Origin: a virus
Reading direction: 5' to 3' (one strand)
Virus record (IMG/VR): IMGVR_UViG_3300031576_000088
Coordinates: 1-46,706 of that record
Length of the DNA stretch: 46,706 nucleotides
Shown: one piece after another, positions 6,002 to 41,984 of the stretch
Numbering within the stretch: the stretch's first letter is position 1
Layout: every line of letters starts with the position of its first letter
Translations under genes and position numbers: made by a program
Notes under the pieces: generated by a model
The model's input: the letters and a program-made list of their open reading frames with translations, nothing else
Databases searched by the model: none
Told to the model about the DNA's origin: nothing

Positions 6002-6159
6002 TCTTCATCCTCATTGAAAAAGGCTAATGTTCTTTCATGCTCATGGTTGTTTATGCAAGTATAAATTATTCTCAGTCCAGTAAGAGTATTGTGCAATTCT
6101 AATTTTTTTGCTTGTACGTCAGAATTGCATTTGTCACAGTAAACAACAATTTCTGTCAA
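5998..6159 (-). CDS. Zinc-binding mini-protein (53 aa)
   Basis: TTG start at 6159-6157 overlaps the upstream stop (TTGA), with GGAG about 9 nt upstream; the TGA overlaps the PCNA ATG. The product contains YCDKCNSD and, 25 residues on, YTCINNHEHE, giving a C2-C-H zinc site. Coupled to PCNA, it might be a clamp-associated factor, but only by position. Confidence 0.65.
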   Translation of the reverse strand: MTEIVVYCDKCNSDVQAKKLELHNTLTGLRIIYTCINNHEHERTLAFFNEDEE

Positions 6160-6512
6160 AATATCAGACTCCGTTGCTGTGGAGCAAGTTCCTTCTTTCT
6201 CATCTCAATTAACTGTGCTAGTCCGTTAAGCTGAGTAGGAGAAAGCGTCTTAATCCAATCCATGTATTTCTCATCTTTTATCATCTGATTGAGTTCTTCA
6301 GTAAACTTAGGATCTGCCATTGCTTGCTTGTTCTTCTCAATAAAAAGACCTATGCTTGTAAGGCTCTTTATGGCATCAGTCCTATCAGAGAAAATCTTTT
6401 CCACTCCTTCAATTCTATGAGAAGAATTTCTGCACATGGAATCAATTTCTTTTAAAAATCCTATATTGACTCGCATTGAAATAGAGGTATTGTAAGAGTG
6501 TTCTTCAGCCAT
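6156..6512 (-). CDS. RHH-domain regulatory protein
   Basis: The N-terminal half (SISMRVNIGFLKEIDSMC, then SDRTDAIKSLTSIGLFI) has the strand-helix-helix pattern of ribbon-helix-helix DNA-binding proteins. A helical C-terminal region of about 60 residues follows and may oligomerise. A TTG at 6530 extends the ORF by 6 codons; I prefer ATG at 6512, which leaves only an 8-nt overlap with the upstream gene. Likely a transcription regulator of the early region. Confidence 0.7.
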   Translation of the reverse strand: MAEEHSYNTSISMRVNIGFLKEIDSMCRNSSHRIEGVEKIFSDRTDAIKSLTSIGLFIEKNKQAMADPKFTEELNQMIKDEKYMDWIKTLSPTQLNGLAQLIEMRKKELAPQQRSLIF

Positions 6513-6645
6513 TCTTTTTAACAACTCCAACTTGAATCAGAAAATTCTTGATTAATTCATTAATTTTAAATCCAATTTTAATACCGTGTTCGTCACAGTA
6601 TTTGGCCAGCTTCTCATAGTTCTCATCTTCTTCCCAAGATTTCAT
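6505..6645 (-). CDS. Hypothetical small helical protein (46 aa)
   Basis: ATG at 6645 overlaps the upstream TGA; stop at 6505. The product starts MKSWEEDENYEKLAKYCDEH and then reads GIKIGFKINELIKNFL, reminiscent of the helix pair of a small RHH or winged-helix protein. Too short to assign. Confidence 0.55.
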   Translation of the reverse strand: MKSWEEDENYEKLAKYCDEHGIKIGFKINELIKNFLIQVGVVKKNG

Positions 6646-6821
6646 CCATTAGTACACTCCGTTTTCGCTAACTTTGTCATTTCTTTAACATGATCTTTTG
6701 CTACATCTTCATCCATTGGAATTATAATTCTAATTCCAGAAGGAACAGATACAATCTCAATTTTATCAAAGCCATAGCCTTCTAACCACATACATAATGC
6801 AGGAGTAAATCTAGGATTCAA
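6642..6821 (-). CDS. Hypothetical small protein (59 aa)
   Basis: TTG start at 6821, 26 nt below a TATA box, so a leaderless transcript is likely. The frame ends by ATGA overlap with the next gene. An amphipathic helix is followed by a beta hairpin (KIEIVSVPSGIRIIIPMD) and a second helix, a compact beta-alpha arrangement. It heads an operon leading to the RHH protein and PCNA. No family recognised. Confidence 0.6.
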   Translation of the reverse strand: MNPRFTPALCMWLEGYGFDKIEIVSVPSGIRIIIPMDEDVAKDHVKEMTKLAKTECTNG

Positions 6822-6841
6822 TATATCTCAAGAAAAGTATT

Positions 6842-6853
6842 GATAAATAAATA
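6842..6853 (-). promoter_or_regulatory. TATA box of the PCNA operon
   Basis: Minus-strand TATTTATTTATC centred about 26 nt upstream of the TTG at 6821, the usual spacing for an archaeal leaderless promoter. It drives the gene set 6821 to about 4264. Confidence 0.55.
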
Positions 6854-6942
6854 TTGATGTTAACAAAGTTACACCCATCATCAACAGATAGAGACACCCA
6901 CACTTCTACTGTAGATCACTAACTAACTAAGCTTCAATTCGT

Positions 6943-6982
6943 GTATGTATTACGTATTACGTACGTCATACGTATGTCATAC
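6943..6982. promoter_or_regulatory. TACGTA cluster in the main early intergenic region
   Basis: Three TACGTA palindromes (6951, 6958, 6969) lie within 24 bp, including the perfect 10-bp palindrome CATACGTATG. The cluster lies about 90 bp upstream of the PCNA-operon TATA box in a gap of about 210 bp that otherwise has no gene. Related palindromes occur at 35.52 and 45.03 kb, so this is either a regulator-binding array or part of a replication origin. Confidence 0.5.
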
Positions 6983-6997
6983 AAAAAAACAAAAAGG
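6981..6997 (-). terminator. T-run terminator after the zinc gene at 7035
   Basis: On the minus strand two T-runs (TTTTTGTTTTTTTG) follow the end of the upstream operon by about 40 nt. Oligo-T without a strong stem is a sufficient archaeal terminator. Confidence 0.55.
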
Positions 6998-7034
6998 TAC
7001 CGAAATGATTCTGGAGTGGAAATGAAGGGGTGTC

Positions 7035-7289
7035 TTAGAATAAGAGCTGTTGGCCTGTAGTTACTTCAGGAGGAACCTCTCCTAACTCAATTCTCTTGTG
7101 AATGCAAGGACAGTTCCATGGGATAGCAGCTTGACATTTGATGCAATAGTATTTTCTGTATCTATGCTTGTGTAATACGTTTCCAACTCCTCCAACTTCC
7201 CATAAAATATTTTGTCCAGTACCTTGATGTACCGTAATTTCTACTTGTTTTGTGCAGAAAGTTTCTGGACAAGCTCGGCCTTTGACCAA
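7035..7289 (-). CDS. Zinc-ribbon protein (84 aa)
   Basis: Cys pairs at CPETFC near the N-terminus and YCIKC plus CPCIH in the second half suggest one or two zinc sites. A basic HKHRYRKYYC segment could contact nucleic acid. It is the last gene of the operon that runs from about 10.2 kb and is followed by T-runs. Function unknown. Confidence 0.7.
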   Translation of the reverse strand: MVKGRACPETFCTKQVEITVHQGTGQNILWEVGGVGNVLHKHRYRKYYCIKCQAAIPWNCPCIHKRIELGEVPPEVTTGQQLLF

Positions 7290-7291
7290 CT

Positions 7292-7792
7292 TTAGCCTCC
7301 TACAGCTGGGGATAATGCCCTCAATCCCAGCTTGGATTCGAGTGTTTCCACAAGTGCAGCATCATCTTTCTTCATGTCCTCTGTAGTTAAGACAACCAAT
7401 CTTTTATTCTCTTCTGTATATCCTCCAAGTTTGTAGTTTGTATTACGATCTGTAGTTTGCTTTGACTCTGTAATTTTATCAAAGAAGCCATGCTCAAGGC
7501 CGTCTATTTCTATGATTCGCTGCACAACATCAGCCTTGATGAACAGATCAATGCTGTTTACTTCATGCGTCATGAACAAGTTAGAATCTTCAGAAAAGGT
7601 AGTAATTATGATTTGGTTTGACTCTTTGTTTCTTGCATAGATGTACTGATCAACCATTCCCAAGGCGTTGATCTTGAAATGCTTGTGAAGAAGATTTACA
7701 ATCCTGTATTTTTTATCCAAGTCACTAGCTTGAGTCATTCCTTTTCTGGCCTGATGAATGTAGGCTCGTTTATTGGTTAGATTGTCATTCAT
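7292..7792 (-). CDS. PD-(D/E)XK-like endonuclease domain protein
   Basis: A 166-aa protein. The core IKADVVQRIIEIDGLEH (residues 86-101) followed by TDRNTNYKLGGY and a VVLTTEDM strand matches the layout of DUF559/Vsr-like members of the PD-(D/E)XK nuclease fold, with D88, E95 and D97 as candidate metal ligands. Such enzymes cut or repair DNA; here recombination, resolution or host-DNA degradation are possible. The assignment rests on motif layout only. Confidence 0.55.
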   Translation of the reverse strand: MNDNLTNKRAYIHQARKGMTQASDLDKKYRIVNLLHKHFKINALGMVDQYIYARNKESNQIIITTFSEDSNLFMTHEVNSIDLFIKADVVQRIIEIDGLEHGFFDKITESKQTTDRNTNYKLGGYTEENKRLVVLTTEDMKKDDAALVETLESKLGLRALSPAVGG

Positions 7793-8193
7793 ACACTTGT
7801 CTTTTGTCTATAGATTGAAATGGAATCTTTTACTCTGTTTTCTAATTTAATGACAGTTCTTTCAAATGCATCAAGAATTTCAGAATCATTACAAGATAAG
7901 AGATAGCAAACGGTCAAAATAGTTATTATCCCATCACTACACTCTTCTAAAAATCCACGTTTCCACTCTTCTGAAAGTGTGTCTCCATACTTGTTATTTT
8001 TATTTCGTAGCATATCCCATATCTCGCTGATTTCAGCATGGCAATGAGCTATCTGTTCAAATGGAGTCCATATCCAACCCTGAGATTTATAAAATTCATG
8101 TACTTTTCTGGAACGTTCCAATAAATCAATTAATTTCAAGCCGTCTTTTGCAGCAAGAAGAGCTTTTTTGTGTTCTTCTGTTGAATATTCCAT
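7789..8193 (-). CDS. MazG-like NTP pyrophosphohydrolase
   Basis: Start set at ATG 8193, just after the stop of the preceding small gene; an upstream ATG at 8241 would overlap that gene by 46 nt. The 134-aa protein has the all-alpha NTP pyrophosphatase signature ExxE-26-ExxD: E54-I-S-E57 and E84-C-S-D87. Members hydrolyse (d)NTPs to monophosphates, for nucleotide-pool cleaning or alarmone control. This may be relevant to the RelA/SpoT-domain protein elsewhere in this genome. Confidence 0.75.
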   Translation of the reverse strand: MEYSTEEHKKALLAAKDGLKLIDLLERSRKVHEFYKSQGWIWTPFEQIAHCHAEISEIWDMLRNKNNKYGDTLSEEWKRGFLEECSDGIITILTVCYLLSCNDSEILDAFERTVIKLENRVKDSISIYRQKTSV

Positions 8194-8195
8194 TT

Positions 8196-8369
8196 CTAAA
8201 CCTGTGTCATGTGAATCGTCTCTTGCTCTATCTTCATGCATTCCTTGGTTATCTTAGCTGCTTGCACAGCTGGAAATCGGCCAAGGACAAATTTGTATTT
8301 TCCCCTTTGAATGTAAACCTCGTACTTTTTGTTCCTGTCATCTCGTTTCTTTGATTTCTTTTTCTTCAA
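8196..8369 (-). CDS. Small basic protein (57 aa)
   Basis: TTG start overlaps the upstream stop (TTGA); stop 2 nt before the MazG-like ATG. The N-terminus is extremely Lys/Arg-rich (KKKKSKKRDDRNKK), followed by a beta hairpin and helix (YEVYIQRGKYKFVLGRF, VQAAKITKECMK), which loosely recalls small DNA-binding integrase-arm or AP2-like domains. Nucleic-acid binding is likely from charge. Confidence 0.6.
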   Translation of the reverse strand: MKKKKSKKRDDRNKKYEVYIQRGKYKFVLGRFPAVQAAKITKECMKIEQETIHMTQV

Positions 8370-10504: not shown

Positions 10505-10796
10505 GCTTATCTACCTCTTTTTTCAGTTCTACATGTTTGGTTTTAATACTGTCAAAAGTATCATTAATTTCTTTTTCTGTCATCTCACTTTCTATGATTG
10601 GGAATCTTGGTATTTCATCAGGATCTATAGGACAAATCGTTCGTAGGTTGTTGACAATTATTCTGGCTTCAGTCCATTTTTGATATAGCTTGGCTGCCGT
10701 CTCTTCAGCCTTTTTGATTTCATCTTCTATATCTTCTCTGGCCACAGGATAGTATTCTGTGGAATAGTTAAAAAGATTCTTATTAGTTGTTTTCAA
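10497..10796 (-). CDS. Helical protein following the tail fibre
   Basis: The longest frame (to 10847) overlaps the fibre gene by 65 nt; a TTG at 10796 reduces this to 14 nt and is preferred, without a clear Shine-Dalgarno. The 99-aa product has two long amphipathic helices (EDIEDEIKKAEETAAKLY and a C-terminal EMTEKEINDTFDSIK coil). Possible fibre chaperone or structural coil, unassigned. Confidence 0.6.
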   Translation of the reverse strand: MKTTNKNLFNYSTEYYPVAREDIEDEIKKAEETAAKLYQKWTEARIIVNNLRTICPIDPDEIPRFPIIESEMTEKEINDTFDSIKTKHVELKKEVDKLG

Positions 10797-12675
10797 GCAA
10801 CTTGATTCTTGCATCCATATTTCGAACTGCTCCAAGCAGCATGGCAATGACGGAGTTCATGACTATTCCCTCTCCTCTTACTGCCTCTGGACACATCTGC
10901 TTGAGTGCGTCTGCATCAAATCCCATGAAAGTTGTATCTCTAAAGTCCTTCTCTTTTGCTTTGTCCTTGAACTCTGGAAATTTGGTAATATCCCACTTGA
11001 ATTTGATTGGCTTCAAAGCCTTGCAAATTTGCAGACAATAGGCCTCATCCATGTCTTGTATATCCTTCTTGAATTTGGTAAATGACGTATTGATTGTTCC
11101 AATTACTGCAAAGACTTCGGCCCATCTGTTAGCTGAACGGCCAAGGTTTGACTGTCCATCTACAGGAAAGAAATCATCAGTTGCCCAATCATAGGTTATT
11201 CTATCTGAAAAGTTGTCATTGAATACGATTGTATCCCCTGTTCCAGTGACTCGCAACAAAACTTTGGAGTCTGATCTGAGAATGCTTGTTGTTGCTAAAG
11301 TAAGAAGCTGCGTTCCTCCCCTGATGAATGCTGCACTCTGAGTCGAACCAAAAGTAAATGAAAACTCACCTGCACTATCATTGATTATCATGTTAGGATC
11401 TGACATTGCGATAGCTCCAACATCTACTATTGAAAAAGCATTCATGTCTATTGCAGTAGCCATGATCATTCCAAGCGAATCAATCCTCATTTGCTGCACA
11501 CCATTGAGAAGCCATTCGAATATGTCTCCAGTTGGAATCAAAAAGTGCATCCCTGAAGTATCCGATAAGATACTTTGGCCAGCCTCGTTGAATAAAATAT
11601 CGTTTAGCTCGTTTAAGCTCTTGTTGTTCATGTCAATGTTTCCAGAAAGGAACCTGTACTGCTCTATTCCGTTGATGTAAATCTGGAAGTTTTCTCCTGT
11701 TGGAACGTCAAGCCTGACTCCTCCAATGCCAGCATTTCCAAACAACACCCTGTTAGCATCAACAAATTCAATTCCTTTGAGATTCAAAGCAGAGCTGTTC
11801 AAAGTCATCTGAGTGATTCCATTTACTAGCCAATCAAACACATCTCCAGTTGGAACCAAGGAATGCAAGCCAGAAGTGTCAGAAAGAATGCTTTGACCAG
11901 CTTCATTGAACAGAATGTCATTTAGTCCAGAGATTGATTGGCCCAAAAAGTCCATGGAACCAACAGCCATTCTATACTTTGCAATCGCATTAATCAGAAA
12001 GCTATGAGTCTCTCCAGTGGGAACATCATAATTAATTCCAGTTGCAGCAATTCCGTTTATGATTCTAGTAAGTGCCGTATCAAATGCAATATAGTCCAGA
12101 TTGTCAAGGCCCTTTTGCTGCATGTTCTTTGTAACATCAATCGTGATGGCTGACCAAAGCGTACTTCCTCCAGCTGAGCCGACAAGCTGCAAGATGAACA
12201 TGCCTCCTCCTGTTCCCTGATCTGCAAAGAATTGAAGGATAGCAAACTGATGATCATTGATAGTAACATCAGTGTCTATGTTGATGTTGCCAGTTGTATT
12301 GTCCAAAGTTGTAGGCTTTTTTAGAATGAGATTCTTCCCAACGACAGGCCTTATTGAGATAATTTGGCCATTCTTTATGACTCCATCAATGAAGTGTAAG
12401 TTGATTGGAGTAGCAGCTCCATCTACAACAAGAGCAGAACTTTGTAGGATGACATGATTCCTTGCAGCTCCATCAGTTGTGTAGTTTACAGTCTGTGGAT
12501 CCCATGCCTCAAGGCCAAGCTGAGCTCCTTGAGGCAAATCTCTAGCTCCCATCCCAAAGCCACTTTGATCAACCTGATTTCCTACAGGAGTATATCTTGC
12601 AAGATTCCGTACTACTCCAAGTTGTGTTCTAAGCTTTCGATTTCTTTGCTCTTCGGATGGAGCTTCGTATGCCAT
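10783..12675 (-). CDS. Tail fibre with C-terminal S74 intramolecular chaperone
   Basis: A 630-aa fibre. The N-terminal 100 residues probably attach to the tail. The centre has repeated beta units: LNDILFNEAGQSILSDTSG occurs twice, each followed by a PTGD-F-W-NG block, and a third diverged copy begins VLFGNAGIGG. The last 100 residues form a peptidase S74 (endosialidase-type) chaperone: SFTKFKKDIQDMDEAYC with the candidate autocleavage Ser, then MGFDADALKQMCPEAV and a terminal coiled coil. It should trimerise and self-process. Receptor-binding role inferred. Confidence 0.88.
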   Translation of the reverse strand: MAYEAPSEEQRNRKLRTQLGVVRNLARYTPVGNQVDQSGFGMGARDLPQGAQLGLEAWDPQTVNYTTDGAARNHVILQSSALVVDGAATPINLHFIDGVIKNGQIISIRPVVGKNLILKKPTTLDNTTGNINIDTDVTINDHQFAILQFFADQGTGGGMFILQLVGSAGGSTLWSAITIDVTKNMQQKGLDNLDYIAFDTALTRIINGIAATGINYDVPTGETHSFLINAIAKYRMAVGSMDFLGQSISGLNDILFNEAGQSILSDTSGLHSLVPTGDVFDWLVNGITQMTLNSSALNLKGIEFVDANRVLFGNAGIGGVRLDVPTGENFQIYINGIEQYRFLSGNIDMNNKSLNELNDILFNEAGQSILSDTSGMHFLIPTGDIFEWLLNGVQQMRIDSLGMIMATAIDMNAFSIVDVGAIAMSDPNMIINDSAGEFSFTFGSTQSAAFIRGGTQLLTLATTSILRSDSKVLLRVTGTGDTIVFNDNFSDRITYDWATDDFFPVDGQSNLGRSANRWAEVFAVIGTINTSFTKFKKDIQDMDEAYCLQICKALKPIKFKWDITKFPEFKDKAKEKDFRDTTFMGFDADALKQMCPEAVRGEGIVMNSVIAMLLGAVRNMDARIKLLENN

Positions 12676-19450: not shown

Positions 19451-20632
19451 TTATGCTGGAGCTACTGGAGTTGTAGCTGCCGTTATTCTTCTGCCTGTGT
19501 TTAGATTGATGATTGCTGCTAAGTGGAAATCAAAGATTCCATATATTTCTGAGCCTGAGATTTCTTCTTTCTTGCTAGCTACCCTAGTTGGCCCTTGGAA
19601 TAATGCACAACAAGTCTCATCACCTACATCTAGTACATAGGCCACTCCCTGCGGAATGAAGTGATCCTGAACGAGTCCTACTCCTGCAAATCCCTTGATT
19701 GGCCTCAATGAAGGCTCCCAAGATGGATCTGGAGCTGGCTCAAACATGCCTTTTACATAGGAGTTTGATTCATAGTCTGTGTATGAAACTGAATGCATAC
19801 CCATTCTGTTGAACGTTCCTCCAATACCTGTAGCTTCGATGCTTGATGTGATAATTCTCGCTACGTCTTTCTTCGGGTTAATTGTAGAACGATCTGTGGA
19901 TGCCACGAAGCTTCCCCAATCGCCTAGAGCTGCTACGCTTGTCAGTCCTGTCTCTAATATCGAGACAATATCAAAGCTCGTACGCTGCTCTACCTTGGTA
20001 GATGCAACGGTAATCGAATCCTGCAATGGATTGTGGATATTCTTGAGCATTGCCTCTTCTGAGATTTCGAAGATTAGTCCGTACTTCTTGGCCTCAAAGT
20101 GAGCTCTGCTGTATCGAATTTCCTTCGGATATGGCAACTGTAGTTCTCCAATCTCAACCATACCACTGAGCTTTTTGAGAGTATCAATGTCTATGACCAA
20201 GTTTGGTATGCCAACTTCCTGAGCTAGATTCTTGGCTGCATACTTTCTCTCCTTGAGTCCGAATAATTTCGCAAACACGTTGAGAATGTTTACAGCTGAG
20301 CTTGTTGGACTTGTCAAAGCTCCCATCCTCTGCCTTCCTCCTGCAAGATATTCGTCTCTGAAGTTTAGATACGTTTGATGAAATTCTTCATCAATGTAAG
20401 GACTTCGAAGATTTAGCCCTGAAATGTCAAGGCCGTCTTTCTTTGCAGTTCGGATTGCGGAGATGTTAGCAAGTCGTATCTGTGGATCAAACACAGGGAA
20501 GAAGTAATCTTGGTTATTGAATCCGTAAGACGGTTCAGCTACACCTGCGTAAACTAGCTTATCATCTGGATTCAGCCAATATTGGTAGCCTGCATTAAGG
20601 CTTCCAAATGTCATTTCTTCTTTTACTTCCAT
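19451..20632 (-). CDS. Major capsid protein (HK97 fold)
   Basis: A 393-aa protein in the classic position: after scaffold and decoration genes and before a strong terminator. Sequence features of an HK97-type capsid include an N-terminal arm, a long helix (LNVFAKLFGLKERKYAAKNLAQ, given in part), a central YSRAHFEAKKYGLIFEISEE strand region and a C-terminal DFHLAAIINLNTGRR beta element that would form the A domain loop and rim. The overlap with the decoration gene is 2 nt apart. Confidence comes mainly from gene order and length. Confidence 0.85.
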   Translation of the reverse strand: MEVKEEMTFGSLNAGYQYWLNPDDKLVYAGVAEPSYGFNNQDYFFPVFDPQIRLANISAIRTAKKDGLDISGLNLRSPYIDEEFHQTYLNFRDEYLAGGRQRMGALTSPTSSAVNILNVFAKLFGLKERKYAAKNLAQEVGIPNLVIDIDTLKKLSGMVEIGELQLPYPKEIRYSRAHFEAKKYGLIFEISEEAMLKNIHNPLQDSITVASTKVEQRTSFDIVSILETGLTSVAALGDWGSFVASTDRSTINPKKDVARIITSSIEATGIGGTFNRMGMHSVSYTDYESNSYVKGMFEPAPDPSWEPSLRPIKGFAGVGLVQDHFIPQGVAYVLDVGDETCCALFQGPTRVASKKEEISGSEIYGIFDFHLAAIINLNTGRRITAATTPVAPA

Positions 20633-24452: not shown

Positions 24453-24670
24453 TTTGAATGCTCCTTGCATTTTACATTAGGTACTTGGCCCACATTTACA
24501 TACGGAAGATTTTGATATTCTACAGGCTTGTGGCAGACTGAACAGGGAGCTCTTCCAGAAATCGTATGCTTTGTTTCATGACAATGCTTGTTCCACTTGT
24601 CAGTATCGGCAGTTGTAAACTTGTGACTATAGCACACATAGTCTCCTCCTTCGATTTCCAGATCAACCAA
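24449..24670 (-). CDS. Zinc-finger protein A of duplicated pair
   Basis: A 73-aa protein with TTG start. A C2H2-type finger (YVCYSHKF...KHCHETKH) is followed by CSVCH and VKCKEH. The gene precedes virion paralogue A exactly as the finger protein at 34.5 kb precedes paralogue B, so the two genes were duplicated as a unit. Possibly an assembly chaperone or packaged zinc protein. Confidence 0.7.
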   Translation of the reverse strand: MVDLEIEGGDYVCYSHKFTTADTDKWNKHCHETKHTISGRAPCSVCHKPVEYQNLPYVNVGQVPNVKCKEHSK

Positions 24671-25784
24671 TTACTGCATCAAATCCCCATTCTTCGTTTA
24701 ACGGTTCAATTCTTCCTTCAGCTGGAGTAAAGTTGACAAGAACCTTTGCGACCTTTTGAGAAGAAATCTTTTCCGTATCGATTGCAACTTTCAAGTCAGA
24801 GTCTTTTGAGTACGGAAATAATGCAACAGGGCTTCGAGTGATGTTCTTTACATAGAAGGTTGCAACTTTTAATTTGCCTGCATCAGTAACGTTGTAATCA
24901 AGAATCACGTTTCCGTTTTTTGTTTTTGGAGCTGGCTTTGTGCAAAGAGGATCAAGATAGTAAGCAATAGGACTGACCTTGTTTGCTGCTACTTGCTTGA
25001 AGTATTTAATTTCTGGCATCTTCCTCTTTTTGTGTTTTACTGTAAACTGTGCAAGATTTAGTATCTGAGTGTCTGACAAGTCTTGTGACATCGTGGTTGC
25101 AAGTTTAAAGTTTGCAAGTTTTATTTTTCCAATCAGGCTATTAATTCTGCATGGAGTTATCTTGCTTACAGCTCCAAGGCTTGCAGTCTTAAGGTGATGC
25201 TCACAACTCTCATACGGCCCATCGCATGTAGCCTTTAGAATTGCGATGTTTCCGTATGCAGGCCTTTGATCAAGTCCTGCCAGATGCAAGCCAAACCATT
25301 TTGTAATCTGTCCATCACGTTCATGTGGATTAACTTTGTAAATCGCAGGAGAGCAAAACGGAGGCCATGGAACATTTGCGTACTCTGCTCTCTTTGTAAC
25401 ATCGGCCCTCCAAACGTCTCCTTTCTCATACACCTTTCGAATGTCAGCTATTGCAAACTTTTCCTGAAACTTTTTGATCAGCCCAATATCATTAACATTG
25501 AAGCTTCCTTTTGGAGCAATTCCCAATACGTCAAAATGCTCTGTTGATGGATGATCGTAGATTTTGCCATAAGGCGAACCAGCTATATACTCGCTTGATG
25601 TGATAACAAAAGGCTGCCCAACAAAGGTATGAATGTTTTTTGGAACTGACTCTCCAGTGACTCCCCATCCTCGGCCGTTCACTTCGTCTCCAGCCAGAAG
25701 GAAGTATGTTGCATGTTGAGCTGATTGTACCTCCAGAGAGGCCAATCTAATAAGAGACTGCATTGAGGGATCGAAGCCCTCCAA
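24663..25784 (-). CDS. Capsid maturation (prohead) protease candidate
   Basis: A 373-aa protein with TTG start. Residues 58-85 (PFVITSSEY...YDHPSTEHFD) and 139-178 with CSPAIYK and WFGLHLAGLDQRPAYGN match the pattern of phage capsid proteases, in which a His (H78), a Ser (S145) and the HLALxDxPAYG segment (here H167 onward) build the active site region. A second, Ig-like C-terminal region (residues 245-373) is unusual. Upstream of the scaffold and capsid genes, as expected. Catalytic residues are inferred. Confidence 0.6.
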   Translation of the reverse strand: MEGFDPSMQSLIRLASLEVQSAQHATYFLLAGDEVNGRGWGVTGESVPKNIHTFVGQPFVITSSEYIAGSPYGKIYDHPSTEHFDVLGIAPKGSFNVNDIGLIKKFQEKFAIADIRKVYEKGDVWRADVTKRAEYANVPWPPFCSPAIYKVNPHERDGQITKWFGLHLAGLDQRPAYGNIAILKATCDGPYESCEHHLKTASLGAVSKITPCRINSLIGKIKLANFKLATTMSQDLSDTQILNLAQFTVKHKKRKMPEIKYFKQVAANKVSPIAYYLDPLCTKPAPKTKNGNVILDYNVTDAGKLKVATFYVKNITRSPVALFPYSKDSDLKVAIDTEKISSQKVAKVLVNFTPAEGRIEPLNEEWGFDAVIG

Positions 25785-26143: not shown

Positions 26144-26244
26144 CCCCAACAACTCCATCCGCATTCCTGACAGACAAGATGATCTCCCCCAATTCCAGAC
26201 TCTAGAATGATCATTGGTTTGTCAGTGTCGCAAGCTTCACACAC
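26140..26244 (-). CDS. Zinc-ribbon mini-protein (34 aa)
   Basis: GTG start at 26244 with a near-perfect GGAGGTGA Shine-Dalgarno 6 nt upstream, overlapping the DUF3560 stop. CEAC at the N-terminus and CQEC 20 residues on form a minimal ribbon (VCEACDTDKPM...VCQECGWSCWG). Confidence 0.65.
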   Translation of the reverse strand: MCEACDTDKPMIILESGIGGDHLVCQECGWSCWG

Positions 26245-26938
26245 TAGCTTTCACCTCCGATACAATATCCTTGGCTAGTTGAATGCTCCAGCTGTTGACC
26301 ATTCGCTGCCAAGCCTTGTTAAATGGACTCCAATGGAATCCGTTCTGTTTTAGTTTTGCAATTATTTCTGGACTAGGCTTTGCTGGAAATATCAGTTTAA
26401 CCCTGTTCTCTTCCTTGTCCACTACAAGCTTCACTCCATTGATTACTTCGTTGAGTTCTGGAATTGCTGCCTTTGCTTCAAGCTCTTTGATTCGTTCCTT
26501 TACCCTTCGCATGTTTCCACTAAGATTAGAAAGCTCCCATCCCTGATGAGGCCTTGATTTTATCTCTTCTCGTTCCTTTTCCATGCATACGAGCTTGTCT
26601 TTGAGTTTCTGTACTGCTTCTGGATCATCCGAGCTTATCGCATGTGGATTCTCAAGATTACTTATCCTGTTAGCATAATGATCTACAATTTCAATCTCCT
26701 TCATTCCTTTCCGCATCGCATTATCTATTCGTTCCAAGTCTCGCCTGTGATGCTTTTCTGAGTGATGGCCTACAAGAATTGGCTGACCGAAAGGAATTGC
26801 ATCTCCAATATCGTGAGCTCGCTTGAAGGCTGCCTCTTTTTCAGCCTCATGTTTTACAAGAAGTTCTTTTGCACGTTCAAGTTTCCGTGCTTGCTTCTCT
26901 TCGTAATAGTTCATTTCTACCTTAACTATACATTCCAT
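26237..26938 (-). CDS. DUF3560 family protein
   Basis: A 233-aa protein carrying the DUF3560 hallmarks: ERAKELL near the N-terminus, GQPILVGHHSEKHHRRDLER (residues 51-70) and a long coiled coil, then the C-terminal NGFHWSPFNKAWQRM segment common in these and related polyvalent proteins. DUF3560 occurs on phages, plasmids and conjugative elements; function is unproven, with anti-defence or DNA-transfer roles suggested. ATG 26938 or 26914 both have TATA boxes at correct distance. It is transcribed divergently from the LPD29-like gene. Confidence 0.82.
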   Translation of the reverse strand: MECIVKVEMNYYEEKQARKLERAKELLVKHEAEKEAAFKRAHDIGDAIPFGQPILVGHHSEKHHRRDLERIDNAMRKGMKEIEIVDHYANRISNLENPHAISSDDPEAVQKLKDKLVCMEKEREEIKSRPHQGWELSNLSGNMRRVKERIKELEAKAAIPELNEVINGVKLVVDKEENRVKLIFPAKPSPEIIAKLKQNGFHWSPFNKAWQRMVNSWSIQLAKDIVSEVKASV

Positions 26939-27822: not shown

Positions 27823-27906
27823 AACATAGCATACTATTCTGGCCCTACGATAGCATTCTATGCAGGACAACGGAACCACTGGAAGATAGCATACTATGAC
27901 GCAGGA
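27823..27906. repeat. Palindromic intergenic element, copy 2
   Basis: Two half-units: ATAGCATACTAT...CTGGCCCTACGATAGCATTCTAT, close to the 12.7-kb first unit, then a further ATAGCATACTATG. It covers the convergent junction and supplies the TAG stop of the 63-aa gene. Confidence 0.7.
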
Positions 27907-28085
27907 AGGATTATGGCATCGTCTGTGTTTGATTTCTTCCACTCTGCCAAGGCCTTGTTTGCCTCAGTTGCATCCGTAAAATGTTTGATGAAGTAGAGCT
28001 GCTCTCCCTGTAGTTCAAAGTCATCAATCCCCACAAGATCAAAGCCTTCTGTTGGAGTATGCTCCAGCCTGTCCTTCATCATCAA
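27894..28085 (-). CDS. Small protein downstream of RelA/SpoT-domain gene (63 aa)
   Basis: ATG at 28085 overlaps the RelA/SpoT gene stop, so the two are translationally coupled. The acidic product has a FDLVGIDDFELQGEQLYFIK beta region and an Ala-rich helix (ATEANKALAEWKK). Tight coupling to a potentially toxic enzyme makes it a candidate immunity protein, without sequence proof. Its stop lies within the palindromic element. Confidence 0.65.
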   Translation of the reverse strand: MMMKDRLEHTPTEGFDLVGIDDFELQGEQLYFIKHFTDATEANKALAEWKKSNTDDAIILPAS

Positions 28086-29443
28086 CTCAAGTCCAGACAG
28101 CCTCCAATTACCTCCATAATTTTCTCAGGACAGTCAGGCTTTTGAACGTTTGTCTTGCCTGTATCTAGCGAATAGAAATATTCCGAGAGATGAGCTGCAT
28201 ACTCGTAGGCCTCGGTAATTGAAGATCCTAGCTGCTTGATGGCCTTGTCTGGCATCTTGTAAATCTTATCATGGACATAGGCAGCCCATGTATCCTGATT
28301 CTTTGTTCTCACTTGCAGCTCGCTTACTGCTCCTGTTTCCTTGTCCTTGATCAGAAAGTGATGGCTTCGATAGCCTGCCTTTGGATTGTCAATGTAATTG
28401 TCCTCTTCTGTTACATTGTAATTGCCTTTCTTGATCTTGGCAACTGCATCCTTTACTGAGTCAATTCCTCCAGAAGTAACAACTCTCAGGCCAGAAACAT
28501 CGGTTAACTTGTCAACTGATGGATAGTCTTTGGGTTTTCGGCCTACCTTTTCAACCATATTGTGTATAGTCTTGACACGGCCAGACACTTCCAAGGCATC
28601 AGGAAAGTCCTGTCTCAGATCTCCAAGCAGCTTGTTTACAACTGAATTATGCTGCTGCTGTATTTGTCTGGCTTTTCCAACTTGCTCTCTAACAAACTTG
28701 GAATTAAGATGTGTATATTTTGTTGTGACATTTGAAACTATTTCGTCATCTTCAGCTTTTTTTTTGTCTAATTCTTCTAGTCTTTTCATGTTTTCTGCAT
28801 GACTTGGCTTCTGTATTTGTTTAGTAGGCTTGTCTCGCATCTCTCTTTCATCGTCTGGAAAGATGTTTTCTTTCTTTTGTAACTTTTCTAATATCTCACT
28901 CTGCACTTTGATTGGAAGATTATTGAATGGTTCAGCCTTGAATCTATCTACAAGTATTCCTTTTTGTGGAAAAATCTCCTTCAGTATTTTCTCTTTTTCA
29001 CCTTTATCCAGCTTATTGTATGCATGGCCAGTTTCATGTTCTGGCTGCTTGTCTTTTGTCATTGACTCTCCGCATTCCTTGCAAGTAAATTCTCCAGACT
29101 CATCCCTTGGATGCTCTTCTTCCTTGAACTCTGCTGCTGTCAGGAGTTTCAGATTGGCCAGCCGAATGTTGCTTCTGATTGCTGCAACCTTCTGACCTAT
29201 TGAAAGCTGGCCGTGTTCACTCTGCATTTTATGCTGAAGAATGTCTGTCTCTTTTGAAACTGTAGCCTTCTTGATCTTTTGTATTTTCACATAGAGTCTT
29301 GCAGCTGATAGAACCATGTCCAAGTCAGAGCCGTATTTGTTTTTGATGTAGTGTGCTAGTGCATAGGGATTGTCAACCTTGTCAGGATGACGCTTCAACC
29401 CTTTTACAAGCTCTTCATAGGATTTGCTTGTACTTTTTTTCAC
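28082..29443 (-). CDS. RelA/SpoT-like nucleotidyltransferase domain protein with C2H2 zinc finger
   Basis: A 453-aa multidomain protein. Residues 20-60 hold a DNPYALAHYIKNKYG segment common in phage head-cluster proteins; 110-120 is a HPRDESGEFT motif typical of phage minor head proteins; 121-140 is a C2H2 finger (C121, C124, H136, H140). Residues 285-395 match the RelA/SpoT synthetase core: R289-V-K291, D315 in LTDVSGLRVV, GYRSHH (357-362), ELQVRT (375-380) and a W/H helix. All key acidic and basic positions are kept. It should transfer pyrophosphate to a nucleotide or tRNA. Virion packaging is inference. Confidence 0.82.
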   Translation of the reverse strand: MKKSTSKSYEELVKGLKRHPDKVDNPYALAHYIKNKYGSDLDMVLSAARLYVKIQKIKKATVSKETDILQHKMQSEHGQLSIGQKVAAIRSNIRLANLKLLTAAEFKEEEHPRDESGEFTCKECGESMTKDKQPEHETGHAYNKLDKGEKEKILKEIFPQKGILVDRFKAEPFNNLPIKVQSEILEKLQKKENIFPDDEREMRDKPTKQIQKPSHAENMKRLEELDKKKAEDDEIVSNVTTKYTHLNSKFVREQVGKARQIQQQHNSVVNKLLGDLRQDFPDALEVSGRVKTIHNMVEKVGRKPKDYPSVDKLTDVSGLRVVTSGGIDSVKDAVAKIKKGNYNVTEEDNYIDNPKAGYRSHHFLIKDKETGAVSELQVRTKNQDTWAAYVHDKIYKMPDKAIKQLGSSITEAYEYAAHLSEYFYSLDTGKTNVQKPDCPEKIMEVIGGCLDLS

Positions 29444-29802
29444 TATGGGTTAGGCCCCTGCTTTGGTTTTACTTTCATCGTCAACGGTTCCCAAGTTCTT
29501 CTTACCAAACTTCCAGCCACGTTGTATAGCATGATTTGCACGTAATAGTCTCCTGTTGCTGGAATGTCCACACTATTAATTGACCAACGAACAGTGAAAT
29601 CATTTAGTAAACTTAGCACAACTGTTTTATCTGGAGTTGCAAAAGTGTCTGTCTTGTTGATAAACAACTTGGCCAGAGTGATTCCCTTTCCTGCAAAACT
29701 TATTTTTTGTGGCTTGCTGTACTGATCAGGCGAAGTCCTGTCATAGATTACTGTGTCATAGAAATCTCCCTTCTCATCTTCAACTAACTCATAGTTTGCC
29801 AT
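29443..29802 (-). CDS. Baseplate upper-protein-like (BppU N-terminal) beta protein
   Basis: A 119-aa protein with the pattern LSLLNDFTVRWSINSVDI-PATGDYYVQIMLYNVAGS-RRTWEP that is typical of BppU-like N-terminal domains found in phage tails. It starts with TAATG overlap after the repeat protein. Possibly an adaptor anchoring the repeat protein to the virion. Confidence 0.65.
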   Translation of the reverse strand: MANYELVEDEKGDFYDTVIYDRTSPDQYSKPQKISFAGKGITLAKLFINKTDTFATPDKTVVLSLLNDFTVRWSINSVDIPATGDYYVQIMLYNVAGSLVRRTWEPLTMKVKPKQGPNP

Positions 29803-30521
29803 TACACTACTTCTCCAGAAGTGCTACGCCTTCCTACAAATGCTTCGGTTATACGTTTTGCTATGTAAGCTGAAGTTTTTTTGATTCTTTTGAGAGTTGC
29901 TGAAACTGCATCAACGGATAGAATGTCCGAGATTGGAATACTTTCAACCAATGTTCGTAATGCCCCGACTGTTCTTTGTAGCTGATCAGAGATTGTTATT
30001 ACTGGCTCTATCAAGGCCCTGATTGCATCCATTTTTCTAGCAAGTACATCTGAAAGAGGAATGTTTTCCGTTAGAGTTCTTGATGCATCTAGCTTGGTTT
30101 GCAGTTGATCAGAGATTGGAATGTTTTCTGGCAGAGTACGGTTTGCTGCAACTGTTCTAGCAAGACTGTCTGAAACTGGCAGAGTCTCAGGTAAAGCTCT
30201 TGTTGCAGCAAGAGTTCTAGTCAGCGTTCCAGAAAGGTTGAGTGTCTCATCAAACTGTCGGATAGCCCCCTGAACTCTGGCCAATGAGTCTGTAATACGT
30301 ATTGCGGGTTGATTCTGTATATCAAATTGATTGGCATCCCCATAGATCAAGTCATCAAAGATTTGTGCAAAGCCTTCCAAAATGGTTCTTGATGCGTCTA
30401 GCTTACGAGCCAGAACATCAGATATGGGTAGAGTTTCTGTAAGAGTTCTGTCATAACCAATTTTAATATCAAACTGATCCGAGTCTCCAAAGATTACATT
30501 GTCAAAGATGTTTGTAGTCAA
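29802..30521 (-). CDS. Second repeat virion protein (ISDxLxR repeats)
   Basis: A 239-aa protein with about eight copies of a 20-21 residue unit (RTLPENIPISDQLQTKLDAS), related to those of the 22-kb protein. Two copies of an FDxxIxGDxxQFDI insert (residues 6-20 and 55-69) break the array. The C-terminus is basic. Same class as thaumarchaeal surface repeats; likely a fibre or adhesive virion element. Confidence 0.8.
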   Translation of the reverse strand: MTTNIFDNVIFGDSDQFDIKIGYDRTLTETLPISDVLARKLDASRTILEGFAQIFDDLIYGDANQFDIQNQPAIRITDSLARVQGAIRQFDETLNLSGTLTRTLAATRALPETLPVSDSLARTVAANRTLPENIPISDQLQTKLDASRTLTENIPLSDVLARKMDAIRALIEPVITISDQLQRTVGALRTLVESIPISDILSVDAVSATLKRIKKTSAYIAKRITEAFVGRRSTSGEVV

Positions 30522-34842: not shown

Positions 34843-35481
34843 TTAGTTCCAGTTTTTTCTTCGTCTGCTAATTAAATTCTGTATTCTAGTAAACCAATCG
34901 CCTTCCCACTGTCTGACTCCATATTTTAACTGGATTCTCTGGCTGTCTATTGTTGTAGGCATGATTGTTCCGTTATAATATGGGTACATCAAGTCATTTG
35001 GCTGATCCGAGTGAACCGATCCGAGTAAGTGACCTGTCTCATGGCCAGCTGTCTGATTTCCGTTGTAGGTTTTTCGCATGATTGTTACTCCATCTTCAGG
35101 CCTGACATACGGCTGGCCGAGGCCATCAACACTCCAAATCTTGTCATCGTTGAATCTGAGAACACCTTGATAGCTAGTCTTTGGAAAACCTGCATAAGCT
35201 AGAATGCCAGAGTCTTTGCCAAAGTAAGAGTCCTCTGCTGCTGGAACCCATTCAATCCTGATGTCTGGATCTTCTGAAGCCTTTACATACTTCAAGACAA
35301 GTGGAATGTAAAGCTCCCAAGATGTCATTGCAAGGTTGATTATCTTTCTCTCTATTGCGTCTCCTGCAATGTCCTCGGTTCCACGCAAGACGGAATATGT
35401 AACGATAGTCCTATCCCACTTGTTAGGAATTTCTGCAATCTGTAGATTTGTGGCCTGCGTCATGGGATAGTAATTGGCCAT
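34843..35481 (-). CDS. Matrixin-type zinc metalloprotease
   Basis: A metzincin with the motif HETGHLLGSVH and a downstream Met-turn (DLMYP); the Met lies 8 residues after the third His. Upstream, GVLRFNDDKIW matches the calcium/zinc site before the active helix in matrix metalloproteases. I take ATG 35481 (212 aa) as start; a TTG at 35520 adds 13 residues. Probably cleaves a host surface or virion protein. No signal peptide is evident in the short form. Neighbouring membrane proteins suggest a role in exit. Confidence 0.85.
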   Translation of the reverse strand: MANYYPMTQATNLQIAEIPNKWDRTIVTYSVLRGTEDIAGDAIERKIINLAMTSWELYIPLVLKYVKASEDPDIRIEWVPAAEDSYFGKDSGILAYAGFPKTSYQGVLRFNDDKIWSVDGLGQPYVRPEDGVTIMRKTYNGNQTAGHETGHLLGSVHSDQPNDLMYPYYNGTIMPTTIDSQRIQLKYGVRQWEGDWFTRIQNLISRRRKNWN

Positions 35482-35518
35482 CTCCAATTCCAAGTCTCTA
35501 ATAAAACAAATCTCTTGC

Positions 35519-35528
35519 AATACGTATT
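35519..35528. promoter_or_regulatory. TACGTA palindrome before the metalloprotease
   Basis: AATACGTATT, a perfect 10-bp palindrome about 40 bp upstream of ATG 35481 and at the TTG start option. Same core as the 6.95-kb cluster and the 45.03-kb site. Confidence 0.5.
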
Positions 35529-37493: not shown

Positions 37494-37529
37494 GAAGATT
37501 TTAAGAGTTGTTGTGAAATTTATTAAATT
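37494..37529 (-). promoter_or_regulatory. Promoter of the membrane/exit operon
   Basis: Minus TTAAAATC about 23 nt above ATG 37476; AAATTTATTAAATTT (37516-37530) upstream. The palindrome is adjacent to the end of the portal gene. Confidence 0.6.
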
Positions 37530-39097
37530 TACTTCCAGCTCTTATCTGTAGATTCAGAGCCATCCCACTTGACGTTGAAGCTAACTTTATCCAAGCTTGG
37601 CTTTGGCTTCCACATTGATGATTTCTTTGCCTTTTGTGGCCTCCAGCTGGGATTTACTTTCTTCCATGTACTAAGAGATGGATCAACGTCTCCTCCTTCC
37701 GTCTCATGCTCCTTGACAAATCTCTTAAGGCCAAGCTTTTCTATGATTCCTTCCTTTGTCAAAATTCCTTGATGGCCCAAGTCTTTGAGGATATTCCAGT
37801 ATGCAGGATCAATCGTCAAGGAAATCTCTGGCTTGTTGAAGTGATGATAAATCCTGATTGGGCATTTCTTAGGATCGTCAACTTCATCAGGCTCTATACC
37901 AAAGAGTATTGCAAGTATCCTGTCATAGAATTGTTTTTCAATTATTGTTTCAATGATTGTCTGCTCTGGCTTGATTTCAGTTTCCAAAAATGCGTCAATC
38001 TCTTCTCGGTTTGCATTGCCTCCTAGTCTGCCAGCCTTTCCTTTTGCCAGCATAAAAGGAGGAATGTTGTAAAACCCAGCTACCGCATCAATGCATTCAT
38101 TCTGGATTGATACAACTCCAGCAATGTCTCCAGCGTTCTGAGGATTTGGAAGAACCTCAACTGATTGAGTTACTGCAATATCTTTTCCAAGCGAGTTGTT
38201 TCGCTTTTGTAAAAAGTCATCCAAAACTTTTTGCGGATTCTTGAAATCTCGAGCTGGGATTGTAATTCTAAAAACTGTAGGCTTGTGCCAAGTGTACTCA
38301 GCAGCCTGTCGAAAGTCCTGTGCATAAATTATTAAAAGCGTCTTTCCAATGTCCTCAATCGCATCAATCATACTACGGCCATAGTGGTCAGCAAAGAGTT
38401 CCAAGTTGTAAGAGTTCTCCAGATAGATTGCACGACATGCATCAAGCCTTCCTCCGTTTGTAATCAGTCCGACAACTTCAACAGCTTCCAAGGCTCCAGA
38501 GCCACGGTTGATCAAAGGCCTTCTTGTAAACTCTGGCCTGATTACTCTCATTGCCTGTGGCATCTGATATTCTTTAGTATCTTCGTCTCTTGTCTCTGGA
38601 AATATACCGATTACACATCGGCCCTGCTCTCGCATGTAAAGATAGGCGTTGAAGGTTAGCGATTCAAGTTCAAGTGTATCTCCCATCTTGTCAATGTAAG
38701 CTTTGATTGCATTTGGAGTAACGTCTTTGTCAAAAAACGGAACATAAATTTTTTGTCGTCTCCATCCTCTCAAAACTGATTCTTTCAGCTCCTTGTCAAC
38801 TCTTGGATAAGCTTCAGTGGTATAGCCTTGGCCAGTTACCAATTTTTGAATTATAACATTTGCACGTAAAACCCAGCTGAGCTTTGTCATTATGGCCCTA
38901 AACGTTGCTCGTTGTGTTGGCCTGTAAGGATCAACTGCTGGATAAATTAAGAGTCCTCCAAGTGGCCTCATCTTTTTTGGCATGGCATATTTTCCTCCAC
39001 TTTGTCTAGGATCAGATTTGTTCCAAGTTCCTACATCAAGAGCTCTTTGTGTTCTAGGAACTGCAACCCATGCAGGAGCCTCTTTCCATTTGGCCAA
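37529..39097 (-). CDS. Portal protein
   Basis: A 522-aa protein immediately after the terminase nuclease. The N-terminal half has the alpha/beta body (TLELESLTFNAYLYMREQGR), and the C-terminal half carries the diagnostic stem/crown signatures: AVAGFYNIPPFMLAKGKAGR with the IPP motif, GNANREEIDAFLETEIKPEQ and IIETIIEKQF. It would form the dodecameric DNA channel at one capsid vertex and dock the terminase. TTG start with a TATA-like element about 30 nt upstream. Basic C-terminus. Confidence 0.9.
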   Translation of the reverse strand: MAKWKEAPAWVAVPRTQRALDVGTWNKSDPRQSGGKYAMPKKMRPLGGLLIYPAVDPYRPTQRATFRAIMTKLSWVLRANVIIQKLVTGQGYTTEAYPRVDKELKESVLRGWRRQKIYVPFFDKDVTPNAIKAYIDKMGDTLELESLTFNAYLYMREQGRCVIGIFPETRDEDTKEYQMPQAMRVIRPEFTRRPLINRGSGALEAVEVVGLITNGGRLDACRAIYLENSYNLELFADHYGRSMIDAIEDIGKTLLIIYAQDFRQAAEYTWHKPTVFRITIPARDFKNPQKVLDDFLQKRNNSLGKDIAVTQSVEVLPNPQNAGDIAGVVSIQNECIDAVAGFYNIPPFMLAKGKAGRLGGNANREEIDAFLETEIKPEQTIIETIIEKQFYDRILAILFGIEPDEVDDPKKCPIRIYHHFNKPEISLTIDPAYWNILKDLGHQGILTKEGIIEKLGLKRFVKEHETEGGDVDPSLSTWKKVNPSWRPQKAKKSSMWKPKPSLDKVSFNVKWDGSESTDKSWK

Positions 39098-39131: not shown

Positions 39132-39866
39132 TCAGATTTGCATGATTTGACTGTCAAAGCCCATCATCTGATCTATCATTGCATCAACATCGGGAGTCTC
39201 TGGCTGTAATCCAATTCTTCTAATTATTGGTTCAACGGCCCCCACAACATACGGAAGAGCAACATAGCAAGCAAAACCCAAGGCCCAAAACCTGTCGTCA
39301 TGTCTATTAACAGGATGCTTGTAAGTTTCATTGCCTGCCTGTGAAATCAAAACTTCTTGCTCTTCAATCTGCCTGACAAGCTCCGACTCCTTTCCTATGA
39401 AGAGTCTTTTTGTTTCAAACAAACCTCTGATAATTTTAACAATATCTATTTTCATTGTCATTGTCGGATTGATTGGTTCCATCGCAAGGCCACTAAGATC
39501 GAAGAACTCGCTTGCTGCATCACCTACTCCCAATCTATCAAAGCCTAGCTTCTCCCATGGATAATGCTCATAGACTTTGTTAGTGTCAGCTGCAACCACA
39601 CGATACTTGACATGTGGCCAGAGTGCAAATGCTTCTTCACGCAAATACGGAACCTCAACTCTTGGCTCGTTATGCAGTCTCAGAACTTCAAGTGCAGAGT
39701 GATCTACTCGCTTGGCCATATCAAGGCCAGCAAATCTCAAGATTGGTTTTTGTTCTACTGGCTCAGTTGGTTTAGTTCCTTTTACAACTTCAGGCTTTTG
39801 AAATGGAGCTACAGGAATCTCTTCTACATAATCAGCCTGTGGAGAGTAGTTATCAAAGAGACTCAT
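39132..39866 (-). CDS. Terminase large subunit, nuclease domain (separate gene)
   Basis: A 244-aa protein equal to the C-terminal RNase H-fold nuclease of a large terminase. Key acids: D49 in FAGLDMAKRVDHSALEVL, D94 in VAADTNKVYEHY and D190-D191 in NRHDDRFWALGFACYVAL. A Pro/Lys-rich linker fills residues 15-42. Start at ATG 39866, overlapping the preceding small gene; a longer frame to 40001 exists but is less likely. It cuts the concatemer during packaging. The ATPase is encoded 1.1 kb upstream. Confidence 0.85.
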   Translation of the reverse strand: MSLFDNYSPQADYVEEIPVAPFQKPEVVKGTKPTEPVEQKPILRFAGLDMAKRVDHSALEVLRLHNEPRVEVPYLREEAFALWPHVKYRVVAADTNKVYEHYPWEKLGFDRLGVGDAASEFFDLSGLAMEPINPTMTMKIDIVKIIRGLFETKRLFIGKESELVRQIEEQEVLISQAGNETYKHPVNRHDDRFWALGFACYVALPYVVGAVEPIIRRIGLQPETPDVDAMIDQMMGFDSQIMQI

Positions 39867-40027
39867 TTCTTTCCGCAATATCCTACCATTGTATCTGAAT
39901 GAAAAACATAGATTCTGTTTGTGGTTTCTGGCAAGTCTGGAGTTGTAGTTGCTATATTCAAATGAAAGTGGCCAAGGCATTGATTGAGTCTGTTCAAGCA
40001 TTCATAAGTTAAATCTGAGTCATTCAT
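39863..40027 (-). CDS. Small protein between terminase domains (54 aa)
   Basis: ATG 40027 and TGA 39863 overlap neighbours by ATGA. Coding-like pattern (DLTYECLNRLNQCLGHFHLN, then IYVFHSDTMVGYCGKK) with three Cys and two His. Position between the two terminase parts suggests a packaging accessory protein, unproven. Confidence 0.6.
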   Translation of the reverse strand: MNDSDLTYECLNRLNQCLGHFHLNIATTTPDLPETTNRIYVFHSDTMVGYCGKK

Positions 40028-40758: not shown

Positions 40759-40926
40759 TCACATAGGAGAATGTTCCACAAAAGGCTTACTTCTAAAATA
40801 TCTGAAGTTCTGTGCCTCATCTATGGCCCTGTGGACAGGTTCAAAGCAACGGCATTCTTCATAAGTACAAAGTTTCTTAAAATGTATTCTACGACAGATT
40901 GTAGCAATAGTATGAATAGAAGGCAT
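40759..40926 (-). CDS. Cys-rich mini-protein following the terminase ATPase (55 aa)
   Basis: ATG 40926 overlaps the ATPase stop (TGATG). Four Cys and three His (ATICRRIHFKKLCTYEECRC) could bind zinc; very basic. Possibly a packaging cofactor replacing part of the missing fused domain; inference. Confidence 0.6.
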   Translation of the reverse strand: MPSIHTIATICRRIHFKKLCTYEECRCFEPVHRAIDEAQNFRYFRSKPFVEHSPM

Positions 40927-41984
40927 CAGTCTCGATAATCTTCATAGCCTAATAGCGTTTTTGTTAAATCTATTGGTTGCAACTTGTCATCTTCTATAGC
41001 TTTAATCTCATCGGCAGGAATTGCAGCTCGCTTTGTTGTTGTGAACTTGCAGCAATACTCCTGTTCAAAGTCAACTCTCGGATCACGTTTCTGTTGTTCA
41101 ACATAGACTTCTGATAAGACTCCAGCCTTGACAGCTATTTCATAATTAACTTCAAGAGTATGATAATGATTCTTGCCAACTATTGCATCGGCCCAAATAT
41201 CATAATAAAAACCACGCTTTCCGTTTGGAGTGGATTCAAAAACCAAGTCTCCATCTGGCCTGTTTGCCAAGTTTGGAGTCAAAGCGTTGTAAATTGGATA
41301 ATCGTCAGTGGCTCCAGAGTGTGCAGCCTCGGACATGAATATGCTAATCACATCATCAGGGCCACGAAAGGCCTGAGCCTTGCCAGACTTGGAAGCTGCA
41401 AAACAAAAAGCTCTTGTTCCATTATAAAATTCTACAATAGGCTGAGGAGATCGTACATATCTGTAAATCAGATCTCCGTATTTCCAATGTCTGCCATCCT
41501 TGTCAGTGATTCCATTTTCAAAGAGCTCGTCAAACCTGTCAAGTATTTCCATAGCAATGACAAGCTCGTTTCCTGCAACAATCATCACGTCATGGCCAGC
41601 GTATCTTTTGAAAACCTGCCTTGCAATTCCTCTGATTCTGCCATCTGTAAAGCCTCCCTTACGAGTCTTGTTTACCACTTCACTGTGATACTTCTCAACA
41701 TCAAATTCGTATTCGATAAGGTGATCTACCTGTCTGACTCTTTTGTTTAAAATTCTGGAGATTGGATTGCCAAGATTTTCATTAAAGGCACGTACTGCTT
41801 TTGCGTATTCGCCTCTCCATGTATCTAATTTTTTTACCTCTGGAAAGTATTTGTTATCTAGTTTTGGAAAGTCTCGCTTGTCTGCTGCTGTAATTCTATT
41901 AATCTTTTCTTGATGCTCCTGAGTTTTTTGTTTGAAGAGTGCCTCAATTTGTTTTAGTGCTTCAAGAGACAACTGGCTTCTCAA
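40926..41984 (-). CDS. Terminase large subunit, ATPase domain (separate gene)
   Basis: A 352-aa protein equal to the N-terminal ATPase of a large terminase. Walker A variant K106-TRKGGFT113, an adenine-binding region before it, Walker B VISIFMSEAAHSG (212-224) where Ser218 replaces the usual Asp while the catalytic Glu219 is kept, and the coupling motif STPNGKRGFYYDIW (251-264). It ends shortly after the ATPase core, without a nuclease domain; that domain is encoded at 39132-39866. TTG start, overlapping the small terminase gene by 23 nt. Confidence 0.88.
   Translation of the reverse strand: MRSQLSLEALKQIEALFKQKTQEHQEKINRITAADKRDFPKLDNKYFPEVKKLDTWRGEYAKAVRAFNENLGNPISRILNKRVRQVDHLIEYEFDVEKYHSEVVNKTRKGGFTDGRIRGIARQVFKRYAGHDVMIVAGNELVIAMEILDRFDELFENGITDKDGRHWKYGDLIYRYVRSPQPIVEFYNGTRAFCFAASKSGKAQAFRGPDDVISIFMSEAAHSGATDDYPIYNALTPNLANRPDGDLVFESTPNGKRGFYYDIWADAIVGKNHYHTLEVNYEIAVKAGVLSEVYVEQQKRDPRVDFEQEYCCKFTTTKRAAIPADEIKAIEDDKLQPIDLTKTLLGYEDYRD

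Follow-up and report, generated by a model that had tools for sequence, protein, structure and literature searches.

Genomic context of the RSH gene

The window analysed here, a 46,706-nt virus contig of IMG/VR (record IMGVR_UViG_3300031576_000088), carries in its head module a gene for a 453-aa protein with a C-terminal RelA/SpoT synthetase (RSH) domain (28082–29443, minus strand, hereafter (-)), an intact open reading frame (ORF) with a GTG start. Its stop codon is overlapped by 1–4 nt by a small partner gene of a previously unnamed family (27894–28085, (-); 61–63 aa), whose product is predicted to neutralise the synthetase. A portal-like protein, the marker of the head module, is encoded upstream (37529–39097, (-); weak matches), while the genes for a predicted prohead-protease- or scaffold-like protein (24663–25784, (-); the protease function being a putative one) and for a major head protein-like (MCP-like) protein (19451–20632, (-); phrog_1650, E=0.0012) lie downstream. 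This arrangement agrees with the virion cassette in which an initial annotation, made from the letters alone, had placed the RSH gene. The gene immediately upstream (29443–29802, (-)) overlaps the RSH start by 1 nt, and is itself preceded by a repeat-rich gene (29802–30521, (-)); both are kept in L007, a related viral contig, where the homologue of the former precedes the RSH gene and the latter is syntenic. The archaeal host proposed early on is likewise borne out, because the window encodes a PCNA sliding clamp (5267–6001, (-); phmmer 2.9e-11 to archaeal PCNA, just under the Pfam cut-off) and shows homology to Nvie-Pro1, a provirus of Nitrososphaera viennensis.

The synthetase domain

The RelA_SpoT domain PF04607 covers residues 288–397 of the RSH protein (28253–28582, (-)) and was recognised with a score of 64 bits (cut-off 27; E=1.8e-17). 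In a phmmer search the protein matched solved small alarmone synthetases (SAS; E=3.5e-11), and a profile of six family members retrieved RelQ as its best PDB match (1e-21), followed by RelP/YwaC (~1e-15), and by CapRel and FaRel2 (~1e-7). Residues ~215–430 are modelled by AlphaFold with high confidence (pLDDT about 90–97), and a Foldseek search with the model returned RelP (3.8e-9) and RelQ (6.2e-9) with a probability of 1.00. The synthetase core that had been recognised by eye is intact in both sequence and predicted RelA/SpoT fold, with no synthetase residue lost: R289/K291 (GRVK), D315 (DVSGLR), Y358/R359/H362 (GYRSHH), and E375/Q377/T380 (ELQVRT) are invariant or nearly so among the 11 aligned members. 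Relative to its closest relative, the RSH region has a nonsynonymous divergence (pN) of 0.22 with synonymous divergence (pS) saturated, and is, on this comparison, under purifying selection. Fold and synthetase motifs are thus like those of RelQ and RelP (SAS1 and SAS2), from which the window protein nonetheless differs by a sequence identity of ~20–25%, an extra C-terminal CP...GCL tail, its fusion to head-type segments, and its viral origin.

As for the product, syn3 reads SxH (within GYRSHH), and syn2 (GLR) and syn4 (VR) are likewise RelQ-like. SxH is of the guanosine type, whereas GxN at syn3 is the signature of the (p)ppApp synthetase Apk2, of the adenosine type (PMC12226406). Since its three motifs are guanosine-type, unlike the Apk2 signature, (p)ppGpp is the favoured product of the window enzyme. 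An N or D at the position of RelQ N148 was also considered as a sign of adenine specificity, but was rejected, as RelP/YwaC has Asp there in the alignment as well. Of note, two cysteines are conserved in a C-terminal tail that is specific to the family (P-x-C-P ... C). This tail is missing in Nvie-Pro1 and may be a site for partner binding.

A partner family linked to the RSH domain

The partner gene was overlooked in the initial annotation. Its linkage to RSH is the strongest evidence for an effector–neutraliser system, and the family that it founds, delineated here by sequence comparison, is the main new result. Family members are ~60–80 aa long; the window protein is homologous to Nvie-Pro1-7 (45% over 60 aa), which also overlaps and follows the RSH gene of the provirus, Nvie-Pro1-6. 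When 2.9 million viral contigs were searched with the partner alone, five loci were confirmed, and all five have an RSH family member immediately upstream; a search with RSH alone yielded five further loci, three of them with the partner downstream. Overall, the partner lies downstream of RSH in 9 of 11 distinct loci (the window, Nvie-Pro1, L007, L006, L009/L010, L011, L016, L017, and L020, the last with an HD gene in between), and no record with the partner contains more than a single copy of it. Neither the loci of other RSH proteins (0/9) nor other head or polyvalent loci (0/79, ~0.73 Mb) carry one, which indicates a link to this particular RSH domain and not to head modules; the idea of a general head-module protein was rejected on the latter count. 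The family occurs in archaeal and apparently also in bacterial viruses, the gene content and base composition of the other contigs pointing to bacterial hosts.

The AlphaFold model of the partner (pLDDT 87) displays a small beta-beta-alpha-beta fold, and comparisons with Pfam, PHROGs, PDB sequences, PDB folds, and plasmids gave nothing significant. A functional clue comes from the 171-kb virus contig L020, in which a cluster at 5629–8259 has two tandem RSH genes, next a gene for an HD_4 hydrolase (E=1e-14; (p)ppGpp-hydrolase-type), and lastly the partner. This order resembles the cassette of bacterial prophages in which the toxin Apk2 (MuF-adenosine 3'-pyrophosphokinase) is followed by its inhibitor IapK and the hydrolase Aph1 (PMC12226406). 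Because of this analogy, the overlapping reading frames, and the small size of the product, the partner is predicted to neutralise the RSH enzyme. The RSH–partner pair is adjoined by a gene for a DUF3560 protein (26237–26938, (-); E=6.6e-30) with similarity to the primase family, and L007 also has one after its partner gene.

Head-type segments in the N-terminal half

The N-terminal half of the RSH protein comprises three segments. The NPYALA segment (residues 1–56; 29276–29443, (-)) has a low-confidence fold and is common to L007, with 54% identity over 48 aa. It is followed by AEFKEEEHPRDESGEF (residues 104–119; 29087–29134, (-)), which motif comparison identifies as a linker-type motif of head and polyvalent proteins, and by a C2H2 zinc finger, C121-x2-C124-x11-H136-x3-H140 (29024–29083, (-)). 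The finger, already pointed out in the initial annotation, is genuine: the spacing is identical in L007, and the segment is modelled as strand-strand-helix (pLDDT about 73).

That the HPRDESGEF motif is typical of head proteins had been suggested as well, and this was examined by scanning IMG/VR with a DNA pattern coding for HPRDExGxF and translating the in-frame matches. At least 87 distinct in-frame matches were obtained, and, among those listed, W or F stands at position -5 in 76/87 and E at -3 in 68/87, although both positions are outside the search pattern; the recurrent consensus is [WF]xExxHPRDExG[RK]F, often followed by Gly-rich sequence (L034–L113). Also among the matches listed, 47 ORFs fetched by the motif alone have portals, minor head proteins, and head maturation proteases as their commonest PHROGs, and their Pfam domains include NUDIX, ADP-ribosyltransferase, zeta toxin, topoisomerase IB, pyrophosphatase, and PBECR nuclease. 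The motif is thus a marker of head proteins with enzymatic cargo, its association with heads having been supposed already. One of the RSH relatives, L014, has several copies of it within and beyond its polyvalent chain. The segment may be a cleavage site, a linker, or a packaging signal; a literature search for the motif gave no mention of it. In a separate contig, L003 (2234–4738), a motif of this type connects a portal protein with the topoisomerase IB domain fused to it (E=3.2e-16).

Relatives and comparison with known systems

Within the phage collection, the nearest record is Nvie-Pro1 (FR725450), where the portal gene is immediately followed by gene 6, labelled Rel_Spo-like. The product of gene 6 shares the RSH domain of the window protein (39% identity over 196 aa), the same partner gene overlaps it, recorded as a hypothetical protein, and in both archaeal tailed (pro)viruses the RSH gene sits between the portal and the protease/MCP genes. 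In contrast to the window protein, however, the provirus RSH is a 210-aa stand-alone protein without HPRDE motif or C2H2 finger. L007 is a closer relative, and there the RSH domain follows, in one chain, a homologue of the protease-like protein that stands separate in the window (66% identity over 227 aa). Other carriers differ again: RSH is found on a MuF-region/InPase chain in L011 (MuF being recognised by eye from the C-terminal sequence), in proteins with weak MuF matches in L013 and L014, on a ParB-like protein in L006, and in SNF2/ddrB-ParB/zeta-toxin polyvalent chains in L010. Such varied carriers of the same domain fit delivery with the virion. Similar SAS from Listeria, Staphylococcus, and faecal records of the phage collection were rejected as relatives, at least several of them being host-type chromosomal SAS with NAD kinase or housekeeping neighbours. 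Scans of genome contigs with two RSH alignments found no relatives, which is weak evidence of absence given the narrow patterns.

RelA/SpoT effectors in MuF or polyvalent proteins of bacterial phages are known (PMC5512222, PMC12226406, PMC12691689). In the available part of the polyvalent-protein survey (PMC5512222), RelA/SpoT domains are combined with other domains in head-linked proteins of bacterial (pro)phages, for which injection is proposed, few polyvalent proteins are noted in archaea, and no partner family is mentioned. The window protein has the same general make-up, as NPYALA, HPRDE linker, C2H2 finger, and RSH domain are found in one head-linked chain and its relatives are large multi-domain proteins; it differs from the RelA/SpoT cases covered there, which are bacterial. 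With Apk2 it shares a C-terminal RSH-type domain on a head protein; where iapK and aph1 follow in Apk2, the window has the partner, a putative immunity gene. However, it has neither a detected MuF domain nor GxN at syn3, and is therefore not assigned to Apk2; moreover, no HD_4 hydrolase gene is found in the window, and the virus is archaeal.

The view that an alarmone synthetase in an archaeal virus would be unusual thus holds in part: the domain is intact and the virus archaeal, but there is precedent in Nvie-Pro1, under its GenBank name, and in the fusions of bacterial phages, so that the window is not the first case. What is new, judging by sequence, is a putative head-borne RSH effector that is archaeal, has a zinc finger and an HPRDE linker, and is paired with a previously unnamed family.

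A candidate virion-borne effector and its alternatives

Taken together, we lean towards a synthetase that is associated with the virion head, probably injected, and matched by a cognate neutraliser. The C-terminal domain would be an active SAS, most likely producing (p)ppGpp-type nucleotides from ATP and GTP/GDP, and the N-terminal half, through the NPYALA segment, HPRDE linker, and C2H2 finger, would keep the enzyme inside the head, on its surface, or bound to the packaged DNA. It would then enter the cell together with the viral genome, drain ATP and GTP, and bring growth-related processes to a halt in an archaeon that has no stringent response, while the partner would keep the synthetase inactive in the virion-producing cell and possibly in lysogens too. 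Several observations weigh against this proposal. The N-terminal 116 residues are poorly modelled by AlphaFold, and a Pfam profile scan of the window protein found no match to the Phage_Mu_F (MuF) domain. A tree separates the 12 RSH family sequences from nine further RSH proteins, and the support for this grouping is modest (79/91). The partner is missing in L013 and L014, where RSH is internal, and forms the N-terminus of a longer protein in L006, L017, and L009, which is unusual for a simple immunity protein; its model has only weak viral matches, to small folds of the DUF2188/DUF1482 type, and no tie to a known inhibitor.

HD-type hydrolases counter some toxSAS. A tRNA-pyrophosphorylating toxin of this kind was already envisaged in the initial annotation; it would act on the tRNA 3' CCA end and block translation as FaRel2, PhRel2, and CapRel do, with the partner as antitoxin. 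CapRel and FaRel2 are indeed matched by sequence and fold, and archaeal translation would be a plain target. Such a toxin is nevertheless disfavoured, and we regard it as improbable, since RelQ and RelP match far better and the syn motifs are of the nucleotide-synthetase type. The small, separate RSH protein of Nvie-Pro1 would suit an auxiliary metabolic gene, that is, an unpackaged enzyme made during infection to tune the host via the alarmone, with the partner as a regulatory subunit; this has a low probability in view of the head-gene location in the window, Nvie-Pro1, L006, L007, and L011, the several relatives whose RSH is fused to a head or polyvalent protein, and the HPRDE linker. The head context and the C2H2 finger could also be expected of an RSH domain that has lost catalysis and serves the head in a structural or DNA-binding role, with the small gene encoding a head-assembly factor, but the catalytic residues are all conserved across very different architectures and the partner tracks the RSH domain, not head position, which makes this explanation very improbable. 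A further alternative concerns the partner only, which could be a chaperone, activator, or loading factor for RSH, as its fusion to further domains in L006 and L017 might suggest; we consider this rather unlikely, because small size, overlapping frames, and the hydrolase arrangement of L020 suit effector–immunity cassettes better.

Enzymes for (p)ppGpp are for the most part absent from archaea, and the nucleotide went undetected in both Haloferax volcanii and Sulfolobus acidocaldarius (PMC3153485, PMC8646023), so that a synthetase brought in by a virion would meet a cell in which this regulation is lacking. If the proposed injection is true, the virus would directly test the effect of (p)ppGpp on an archaeal cell. 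More tentatively, and with somewhat more doubt than confidence, a virion-borne alarmone weapon could be common to archaeal and bacterial viruses, consisting of a distinct RSH clade on interchangeable head-loaded carriers, usually controlled by an unrecognised family of small neutralisers, and forcing a nucleotide alarm of the bacterial type upon archaea in which none is in use. In the partner family there is a concrete candidate for a new class of inhibitors of alarmone synthetases, with conservation reaching from viruses of archaea to those apparently of bacteria, and the HPRDE segment provides a handle for locating head-borne cargo enzymes in viral genomes.

Other features of the window

The structural region also encodes a Matrixin-type M10 metalloprotease (34843–35520, (-); PF00413, E=6.8e-22), which is unusual in a tailed virus. 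The large terminase is apparently split into an ATPase ORF (40926–41984) and a nuclease-like ORF (39132–40001, (-)) separated by ~0.9 kb, which may reflect an intron, an insertion, or a true split. Finally, the tail-fibre protein (10783–12675, (-)) has a borderline match to the Peptidase_S74 intramolecular chaperone.
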